DNA of 47,127 nt. Origin: Candidatus Nomurabacteria bacterium. GTDB lineage: Bacteria; Patescibacteriota; Minisyncoccia; Phycocordibacterales; UBA9973. The stretch covers positions 74,841 through 121,967 of the forward strand of contig JAHFNT010000003.1 in the NCBI GenBank assembly GCA_023267195.1, given 5' to 3'. The notes under the pieces were generated by a model that had not been told where the DNA came from, made no database searches, and worked only from the letters and a program-made list of their open reading frames with translations. Position 1 is the first letter of the stretch. Each line of letters begins with the position of its first letter. A program made the translations under genes and the position numbers. Of the stretch, positions 32,709-37,579 are shown piece by piece.

Positions 32709-33752
32709 TCAAATTAATTTATTTTGTAAACTAGCTGGAACATCAAACCCTAAATGCTCATAAGCCTTATTAGTAGCTACGCGTCCACGCGGGGAGCGTT
32801 CGAGGAGGCCGAGCTGGATCAAGTAAGGTTCAATCACTTCTTCGACGGTTGCTTCTTCTTCGGACATGGCGGCCGCCATAGTCTTGAGACCAACAGGTCC
32901 GCCGTTAAATTTTTCAATCAAGATTTCCAAAAATTTACGATCCGATTGATTCAAGCCAATTTCATCGATCGCGAGCATGTTGAGCGCATCTTTGACCGTT
33001 TTTAAATCTAAACTTTTTTTATGCACCTGCGCAAAATCTCGACAACGCTTTAAAAAATAATTAGCCGTGCGCGGAGTGAAGCGGCTGCGTTTCGCGATTT
33101 CTTTCAGAGCATCATTTTCTAATTCTGTTTTTAAAAGTTTACTAGATCTTTCGATGATTTTGGCAATTTCTTCGTTGGAATAAAATTCCAAACGAAAAAC
33201 CCCACCAGAAAAACGTGAGCGAAGCGGAGAGGAGACCATGGCGACGCGCGTGGTGGCGGCGATCAAGGTAAACGGTGGTAGATCGAGCTGGATCGTGCGC
33301 GCCGAAGGACCTTTGCCGATGATTATATCTAAAACTCCAGACTCCATCGCTGGATATAAAATTTCTTCTACCATTTTATTTAAGCGATGAATTTCGTCGA
33401 TGAAAAGGATGTCTCCCGAGGCAAGATTGGTCAAAATAGAAGCCAAATCACCCACTTTTTCAATCGCTGGGCCGGAAGTAATCTTCATTTGTCGGCCAGT
33501 TTCTTTGGCGATCAGATGCGCCAAAGTAGTTTTTCCTAGTCCAGGGGGGCCGTAAAAGAGGATGTGCTCCGGGATGTGTCCGCGCCCTTCGGCAGCCTGT
33601 AATAGTATTTTAACGTTGTCTTTTATGTGTTTTTGGCCAATATACTCGTCCCAATGGGTTGGACGCAGGGTTTGATCTAAAAAGGAGTCATCAGAAACAA
33701 CTCCTTTTTCCGAGCTTGAATTATCTATTTCGTTTGTTTTTTTGCTTGACAT
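32709..33752 (-). CDS. ruvB: Holliday junction branch migration ATPase RuvB
   Basis: LRPTHWDEYIGQKHIKDN, LFYGPPGLGKTTLAHLIA, ILFIDEIHRLN, GGPVGLKTMAAAM. Confidence 0.97.
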   Translation of the reverse strand: MSSKKTNEIDNSSSEKGVVSDDSFLDQTLRPTHWDEYIGQKHIKDNVKILLQAAEGRGHIPEHILFYGPPGLGKTTLAHLIAKETGRQMKITSGPAIEKVGDLASILTNLASGDILFIDEIHRLNKMVEEILYPAMESGVLDIIIGKGPSARTIQLDLPPFTLIAATTRVAMVSSPLRSRFSGGVFRLEFYSNEEIAKIIERSSKLLKTELENDALKEIAKRSRFTPRTANYFLKRCRDFAQVHKKSLDLKTVKDALNMLAIDEIGLNQSDRKFLEILIEKFNGGPVGLKTMAAAMSEEEATVEEVIEPYLIQLGLLERSPRGRVATNKAYEHLGFDVPASLQNKLI

Positions 33753-33897
33753 TGATTTTATATTATGCTATACTGGGGAAGTATTGTGAAAGTAAGGCTT
33801 TTATTAACACAGTATACACATAGCTATACACATTATAGCATTTGCGTTCTTTTACATATAGTATAATCTTCCCAGTGTGTTTTTTGGGGAGATTTAT

Positions 33898-34053
33898 AAG
33901 AAGGCATTAATCTCTAAGCAATCAGCCATCGGTTATACGAATTTGCGTAGGACGTTCTGGTTCTATTTATAGACCACTGGAACTATCCTATAATATTTTG
34001 TTACTCTCGGGGCCCAGCCCTGAAAGGATTGTTTAGAGATTAATGCTTTTTTC
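33898..34053 (+). ncRNA. Structured noncoding RNA candidate, family not identified
   Basis: GCATTAATCTCTAAGCAATC (33904-33923) pairs with GATTGTTTAGAGATTAATGC (34027-34046): 19 Watson-Crick pairs plus one G-U. Internal hairpins TAGGA/TCCTA + GTTC/GAAC and CGGGGC-CCA-GCCCTG. 3' T-tract TTTTTTCTTTT. Upstream TATAAT at 33862-33867. Confidence 0.65.
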
Positions 34054-34076
34054 TTTTGGAGTGTTATAATTTAGGA

Positions 34077-35881: not shown

Positions 35882-37579
35882 TTATTCCTCGTTTAGATTA
35901 ACTACGCTCTGCACTTCTGCAAAAGAAGTAACGCCGTTTATTATTTTTACTAGGCCGTCTTGGCGCATAGATAGTATCCCTTGAGTGCTTGCCACTTTTT
36001 TTATTTCACGCTCACTTGGATTTTCTGGCATAATTTTTTCTATGGCCTCATCTGTCTTAATTGCTTCAAAAATCCCGATTCGTCCCTTATAGCCAGTCTT
36101 GTTGCATTTGTCGCACCCCACGGCAGCGAAAAGCCTTAAGGGCGCATCGGGGTTTAGATTATAATTCGAAAGTTTTTTGCCCTCAGCAATCATTCCGTTC
36201 ATGATTGATTTGATAGTTTCTATTTCTTTGGGTGTCACTTCTTTTTCTTTTTTACAAAATGCGCAAAGTTTGCGGACTAAACGTTGGGCCATAGAGACAG
36301 ATAAAGCCGAAACTAAAATTTTTGGATTTACTCCCAGATCTATAAGTCTAGGTATAACTCCCGCTGCATTGTTGGTGTGCAGAGTGGAGAAGACCATATG
36401 TCCAGTCAGAGAGGATTGCACGGCGATCTCGGCCGTGTCGCTGTCGCGGATTTCTCCGACCATGATTACATCGGGATCTTGGCGGAGTGCTGAGCGCAAT
36501 CCTTCAGGGAAAGTGTACCCTCTTTCAATATTGATTTGAGTTTGCGTTATCCCTTTTAGGTGGTATTCAACAGGATCTTCAATGGTGATTATATTTATTT
36601 CTGGCGTGTAAATTCTTCGCAAAAAGGCATAAAGAGTGGTAGTTTTTCCAGAACCAGTCGGTCCAGTGACTAAAATGAGCCCATTTGGTTTTATAATTTC
36701 TTCCTTTATGATTTCAAAAAGGCCGGGTTCAATTCCTAATTCTTCCATTTCTACCTGCAGGGATTTTGGATCCAGTATGCGCATTACGATCGATTCTCCA
36801 TAAGATCCCGGAATAAAAGAACTACGGATGCTTATCTCTTCATCTCCCTCCATAATATTAAAACGCCCGTCTTGCGCTATCGTGGAGGTCAACTTCATTC
36901 CAGAAAGAAGCTTGATGCGAGAATTAAGCAATCTATACACATCAGTTCCGAAGAAATTTATGTCTTGTAACACGCCATCTAAGCGCAGACGCAGACGGCC
37001 GCGTTCCTTTTCCGGTTCGATGTGGATGTCCGAAGCTTTGATAGCTATGGCGCCTGCTAAAATCACCTCCAGTAGCCGGGAAATTTTGTGAATTTTGTTT
37101 CCTTCCAATGTTTCCGCTACCATCTTCTGGATATCCTGCATCTTCTCTATCTTTTTGGCGGTTTCTCTCAGCACTTCTCCTGAAATATCCAAGCCTCCGA
37201 CCATCGAACTTTCCGCCATGGAGATTTCTTTATATCTTTCCCAAACTTTATTTATACTTGCCGTTGATGCCATGTAAAAAGTAGGAGTCAGGCTTTTTCG
37301 TTCCATCTCTTCTTTCAATTTATTTATCAAATCATCGGAAGGTATTTTTAGTGCGATAAAAATATTTTTGCCGAAAAGTTTAAAAGGCGCGATGTTCATT
37401 TCTCTGGAATCTTTTTCGCTTATGGCGCGGAGTGCTTCATTGTCTACCCCTAGTCGGTACAGATCAATATACGGGAGATGATACTTTGCTTCCGCTAGGG
37501 TAGCCACCAATTCCTCCTCTTCTTGTTTACGCAAATCCTCTAGTTGTTTGTTTTGTTTTTCGTCGTCAAATAAAGCCAT
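35882..37579 (-). CDS. pilB: GspE/PilB-family secretion/type IV pilus assembly ATPase
   Basis: LVTGPTGSGKTTTLYAFLRR, ITIEDPVEYHLKGITQTQIN, LRSALRQDPDVIMVGEIRD, Cys motif CAFCKK/CDKCNKTGYKGR. Confidence 0.93.
   Translation of the reverse strand: MALFDDEKQNKQLEDLRKQEEEELVATLAEAKYHLPYIDLYRLGVDNEALRAISEKDSREMNIAPFKLFGKNIFIALKIPSDDLINKLKEEMERKSLTPTFYMASTASINKVWERYKEISMAESSMVGGLDISGEVLRETAKKIEKMQDIQKMVAETLEGNKIHKISRLLEVILAGAIAIKASDIHIEPEKERGRLRLRLDGVLQDINFFGTDVYRLLNSRIKLLSGMKLTSTIAQDGRFNIMEGDEEISIRSSFIPGSYGESIVMRILDPKSLQVEMEELGIEPGLFEIIKEEIIKPNGLILVTGPTGSGKTTTLYAFLRRIYTPEINIITIEDPVEYHLKGITQTQINIERGYTFPEGLRSALRQDPDVIMVGEIRDSDTAEIAVQSSLTGHMVFSTLHTNNAAGVIPRLIDLGVNPKILVSALSVSMAQRLVRKLCAFCKKEKEVTPKEIETIKSIMNGMIAEGKKLSNYNLNPDAPLRLFAAVGCDKCNKTGYKGRIGIFEAIKTDEAIEKIMPENPSEREIKKVASTQGILSMRQDGLVKIINGVTSFAEVQSVVNLNEE

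Follow-up and report, generated by a model that had tools for sequence, protein, structure and literature searches.

The window analysed here, a 47,127-nucleotide stretch of a Candidatus Nomurabacteria genome, contains a candidate gene for a structured RNA, hereafter called the ruvB-linked RNA, which probably represents a new, class-wide family of single-copy, autonomously transcribed non-coding RNAs of approximately 155–180 nt. Judging from sequence and comparative data, such RNAs would act in trans and would be bound by protein. The ruvB-linked RNA is distinct from 6S RNA, tmRNA, RNase P RNA and all Rfam families, and no published description of it was found in the open-licence literature.

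Promoter, fold and covariation of the ruvB-linked RNA

The conserved core of the RNA, approximately 155 nt including the T-tract of the terminator, was located at positions 33898–34052 of the + strand by DNA homologues, by the covariance models R1 (built from 55 sequences of the genus) and R2 (a class-level model of 54 sequences) and by covariation. The fold energy of the stretch is −80.5 kcal/mol, compared with −46.2 ± 3.9 kcal/mol in 200 shuffled sequences (z −8.87). An earlier note, made from the sequence of the window, had assigned the RNA to positions 33836–34057. The structured RNA does lie inside that span, but its first part (33836–33897) is promoter and variable leader, and the conserved RNA begins at about 33898. 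The leader forms a small hairpin in the window (approximately 33865–33895) and is variable among those members of the genus which lack the short promoter spacing described below.

The predicted −35 region of the RNA promoter contains a TTATAGCATTTG element at 33833–33844 (+ strand), and TTATAGCA is found upstream of 50 of the 55 genus homologues, once in 49 of them and twice in one. The −10 box, TATAGTATAAT, is at 33857–33867 (+ strand), with the TATAAT to which the earlier note had drawn attention at 33862–33867, and TANTANAAT precedes 54 of the 55 homologues. At the ten shortest genus loci the −10 box ends 4–9 nt before the first helix of the RNA, P1, so that transcription would start at P1. 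The T-rich end is a T-tract at approximately 34047–34052, and nearly all genus homologues share its position behind P1. Among the paired cells of the genus alignment, 509 are G.U and 8 are A.C, an asymmetry which identifies the + strand as the RNA and rules out a minus-strand RNA or a ruvB leader. The promoter and terminator signals, the covariation and the asymmetry between the strands, each of them read from sequence, agree with the independent small RNA that had been claimed, as does the variable downstream gene; an own promoter, an own terminator and a covarying structure together characterize an autonomous structured non-coding RNA.

The gap between ruvB and the promoter (33797–33845) also contains a TATNMACA repeat, present two to three times (TATTAACA, TATACACA), which is similar to DnaA boxes and is conserved in the majority of the 55 sequences from the genus. 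The TTATAGCA element lies in the same gap, and a similar AGTATAGCATAAT on the ruvB side suggests that ruvB and the RNA are controlled jointly.

The alignments support a predicted fold of four helices, P1–P4, arranged around a cloverleaf-like four-way junction. The 5′ strand of P1, AAGAAGGCATTAATCTCTAAGCAATC (33898–33923, + strand), pairs with the 3′ strand and T-tract (34027–34052, + strand), forming a closing helix which is also the predicted intrinsic terminator and in which GGATTGTTTAGAGATTAATGCTTTTTT is nearly invariant in position in 55 genomes. The 20-bp pairing of the ends proposed earlier is present (33904–33923 with 34027–34046), and flanking A/G-U pairs, likewise foreseen, extend the helix to approximately 26 bp; the range among homologues is 25–27 bp. 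P1 is paired in 99.0 % of the cells in the genus and in 93.4 % in the class, where 26 of its 27 pairs show a two-sided change in at least one sequence. P2 is a small 5′ hairpin, AGCC-ATC-GGTT (33924–33934, + strand), paired in 99.5 % of the genus cells and covarying at 7/7 pairs in the order, and it is absent from some members of the class. The long irregular stem P3 (33937–34001, + strand) consists of a basal ACGAA/TTTGT pairing, TAGGA/TCCTA, an internal loop C/TA, GTTCTGG/CTGGAAC and a variable apical hairpin with a loop of varying length in the alignment; two-sided changes were observed in 22 of 27 pairs in the order, and the internal loop carries the conserved motif GGACGNNCUGG...CUGGNNCUAUCC. 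P4, the 3′ hairpin around CGGGGC-CCA-GCCCTG (34004–34026, + strand), has two-sided changes at 5/9 pairs in the genus and 8/9 in the order. Some loop and junction motifs are conserved, among them YACCCAU, which is found in P4 of some class members. The stretches with the strongest conservation, ATCTCTAAGCAAT and ATTGCTTAGAGAT, are paired inside P1, and no long single strand is conserved.

The end helix and two hairpins, namely the GTTC/GAAC and TAGGA/TCCTA stem and the CGGGGC-CCA-GCCCTG hairpin, had been described in the earlier note and are seen in the sequence, but the 5′ hairpin (33924–33934) and the basal pairing of the long stem (33937–33941 with 33997–34001) had been overlooked. It is these two elements which produce the four-way junction.

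Standard pairs make up 98.6 % of the 2849 paired cells in the alignment of the 55 genus homologues, in which 15 pairs have changed on both sides, compared with 7.4 in shuffled alignments. The corresponding two-sided changes affect 58 pairs of a 68-pair structure in the order (48 members) and 39 of 43 pairs in the class. All five covariation measures exceeded each of 500 shuffles, which ignore kinship, and every slid control, which corrects for it, at genus, order and class depth. Covariation, the absence of which had been named as a sign against the RNA, was found in all three alignments of homologues.

Distribution and neighbouring genes

Of the 60 genomes available for the genus, 58 contain a homologue of the RNA according to a DNA search, one of these (G059) having a short, weak match only, and there is usually one main copy per genome. 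The single main copy and the fixed locus rule out a mobile inverted repeat. Model R1 matched 110 of the 148 genomes of the order and model R2 88 of the 112 genomes of the class, which bears the name Paceibacteria in GTDB; the wider set extended beyond Ca. Nomurabacteria to Taylorbacteria, Vogelbacteria and other Paceibacterota. When 287 genomes sampled across the phylum were searched, R2 matched 16 of the 23 belonging to the class but not one of the approximately 264 others. The genomes were sampled one per species, with incomplete assemblies included, and part of the 24 class genomes missed by R2 (21 %) may be true losses. E-values of R1, R2 and of the 6S model R3 (below) are rough, and when its filters are off, R2 gives scores to plain terminator hairpins as well, so that its weak matches (E above approximately 1e-5) were not counted alone as evidence. 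One match outside the class (G446, E = 3.4e-4) was absent with R2 and resembles a chance long hairpin.

In the window, the DNA-repair gene ruvB is the divergent neighbour (32709–33752, − strand; Pfam RuvB_N, E = 4.1e-70), and ruvB is upstream and divergent at all of the approximately 130 genus and order loci examined. The same divergent arrangement was seen in the class for 78 of the 88 matches, at 37–754 nt from the ruvB match, the other 10 being on contigs separate from ruvB or in genomes in which no ruvB was found. Two genomes with no ruvB match (G376 and G490) still have the RNA beside the pilB-type gene, which indicates that the RNA is independent of ruvB. This second neighbour, encoding a pilus-motor ATPase of the gspE/pilB type, converges from downstream at most loci of the genus and order; in the window it is found at 35882–37579 (− strand; Pfam T2SSE, E = 1.1e-113), with another gene between it and the RNA. 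In many members of the genus (for example L003, L005, L008 and L041) only 0–5 nt separate the 3′ end of the pilB-type gene from the terminator of the RNA, and P1 may also terminate pilB transcription on the opposite strand.

The sequence downstream of the RNA differs between genomes. The secreted-protein gene of the window, which has no Pfam match, is not a fixed partner of the RNA; the region from its TATAAT (34065–34070) to 35864 separates the RNA from pilB here, and in many relatives pilB follows the RNA directly. The TATAAT is so near the ATG (34077) that the mRNA of this gene may be leaderless. A downstream gene which differs or converges argues that the RNA is not the leader of a fixed gene, and the view that it is no simple riboswitch, put forward earlier on the basis of the window, is borne out by the downstream genes of other genomes. 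A riboswitch or leader was rejected because the downstream gene varies, no co-directional gene is conserved and pilB is on the opposite, converging strand.

Relation to 6S RNA and other known families

The ruvB-linked RNA resembles 6S RNA (SsrS, RF00013) in length, in the helix closing its 5′ and 3′ ends, in its long apical stem and 3′-side hairpin, and in being a single-copy autonomous gene. It differs in lacking the open central bubble and the ACCCACCU core of 6S RNA and in having no Rfam 6S score. A passage in PMC8876501 states that a large single-stranded central bubble between two helical arms is sufficient for the 6S cycle. The basal pairs of P3 (columns 53–63 with 116–126, alignment A6) covary across the 48 members of the order, which implies that the bubble required by 6S RNA is closed in the ruvB-linked RNA.

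The Rfam 6S model had no match in the window and none above the cut-off in the 60 genus genomes, while four control genomes were above it, and in the phylum sample its matches were in other classes only. The absence of Rfam 6S matches from the genus and from sampled class members had first favoured the ruvB-linked RNA as a replacement of 6S RNA. This was ruled out with R3, a 6S core model built from the phylum-sample 6S matches outside the class, and by the 6S RNA of the window's own genome (G000). R3 found 6S RNA in 30 of the 112 class genomes, 24 of which also carry the ruvB-linked RNA. Those class 6S RNAs that were folded have the canonical fold, and the four loci examined are between ndk and a membrane-protein/MBL-nuclease pair; in the genus, weak R3 matches are beside the MBL gene at 19 of 20 loci. 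Gene order and sequence place the canonical 6S RNA of G000 at contig 7 115162–115319 (L431 15162–15319, − strand), next to the membrane protein and MBL nuclease genes, with ndk one gene further off. It is 82–89 % identical to 6S examples from the genus and falls below the Rfam gathering threshold. R3 had no match at the ruvB-linked RNAs and R1 none at the 6S loci, nor did cross-matching of R2 and R3 give anything in register. With a separate 6S RNA near ndk, both RNAs present in other genomes at the genus, order and class levels, and the base of P3 filling the bubble region, the 6S-like character suggested in the earlier note was not upheld. The class thus does possess 6S RNA, which is under-annotated there and distinct from the ruvB-linked RNA.

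No significant Rfam match to the ruvB-linked RNA was obtained at the gathering level or at permissive thresholds, so that the Rfam hit which the earlier note had said would make it a known class did not appear. The scan covered approximately 99.7 % of the assembled bases of G000. It located tmRNA at contig 7 111087–111487, a LOOT RNA (RF03000, 55.8 bits) at contig 7 92368–92495 (L430 12368–12495, − strand) and a cobalamin riboswitch (34.4 bits, gathering threshold 31.5) at contig 5 172687–172834 (L421 12687–12834, + strand). The LOOT RNA is another structured RNA family in the same genome, but its locus is separate, the family is different and it does not match the ruvB-linked RNA. RNase P RNA, recognized by both conserved boxes, is at approximately 7530–7880 of contig 7 (L315, − strand); its boxes are clear, yet it was absent from the gathering-level output of the scan. 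No SRP RNA was matched by Rfam in the bases scanned, and the pattern search found no convincing domain IV in G000. The domain IV motif of SRP RNA (AGG...GNRA-type loop...AGCA) is absent from the alignment of the ruvB-linked RNA, which was rejected as an SRP RNA for lack of a motif match. G000, a 91 % complete assembly, also yielded no Ffh/FtsY GTPase motif, and the SRP pathway has possibly been lost in this lineage. According to a passage in PMC11077062, 6S RNA and Ms1 are the two types of RNA known to associate with bacterial RNA polymerase. The actinobacterial, polymerase-binding Ms1 RNA is, by its description, comparable to the ruvB-linked RNA in being a lineage-restricted structured RNA.

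Interpretation and alternatives

Two of the alternatives assign the RNA to a known type. It could be a second, very divergent 6S-type RNA which binds RNA polymerase beside the canonical one. 6S-1 and 6S-2 coexist in Bacillus, and the similar length, end-closing helix, 3′ hairpin and autonomous transcription signals are compatible with such a role, as is the strand after P3, which in the window reads CCTATAAT and resembles a −10 box. This appears unlikely, however: the TATAAT after P3 is not conserved in relatives, which have TTCAAG, TCTAAT or TTTAAT instead, the covarying base of P3 closes the bubble across the order, Rfam 6S scores are below the cut-off in every genus genome, and the loci are not cross-matched by R3 and R1. 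That the RNA is one of the standard housekeeping RNAs in an unrecognized form is extremely improbable. SRP RNA would be the main candidate, as neither Rfam nor the pattern search gave a convincing one in G000, but the RNA has no domain IV motif, its apical loop is variable in length and the Ffh/FtsY GTPase motif was not found in G000 either, while tmRNA, RNase P RNA and 6S RNA are all encoded at other loci.

The remaining alternatives concern the mode of action. The strict synteny, with divergent ruvB and convergent pilB at nearly all loci and a pilB 3′ end sometimes 0–5 nt from the terminator, would suit a cis-acting leader, attenuator or bidirectional terminator for ruvB, pilB or the secreted-protein gene. 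Such an element is improbable, as ruvB is encoded on the opposite strand, with its start lying upstream of the promoter of the RNA, the downstream gene on the + strand is not conserved, P2, P3, P4 and the conserved internal loops would be superfluous for a terminator, and the RNA is kept where ruvB was not found. A regulatory sRNA which pairs with mRNAs, the conserved stretches being its seed regions, would be compatible with the autonomous promoter, the terminator and the size, and some junction and loop motifs are conserved, such as YACCCAU in P4 of some class members. With the most conserved stretches paired in P1 and no long single strand conserved, this role is distinctly doubtful.

The preferred interpretation is a new family, whose gene would have been inherited through the class Paceibacteria and would be transcribed from its own promoter, divergently from ruvB. 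The ends of the transcript would pair as P1 (25–27 bp), doubling as an intrinsic terminator, and P1, the two small hairpins and the long stem with its GGACGNNCUGG...CUGGNNCUAUCC motif would meet in the cloverleaf-like junction. Three features suggest action in trans: a single copy is retained throughout the class, no downstream gene is fixed, and conservation is concentrated in P1 and in the internal-loop motif of P3. Because the most constrained positions belong to helices and an internal loop rather than to a single exposed strand, the RNA would most likely be part of a ribonucleoprotein, a role deduced from conservation alone. P1 is a perfect helix long enough to be a substrate of RNase III, which may, as a guess, trim it.

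With covariance models at hand and a locus fixed between ruvB and pilB, the transcript should be easy to search for in existing metatranscriptomes. A structured single-copy RNA, kept at a fixed locus across some 80 families of one class, is likely to have a basic role, and since the genomes of these bacteria are small, its strict retention points to an indispensable process. On balance, the ruvB-linked RNA seems somewhat more probably than otherwise to be a near-universal, previously undescribed housekeeping RNA which serves a whole class of ultra-small bacteria and ranks with 6S RNA or tmRNA.
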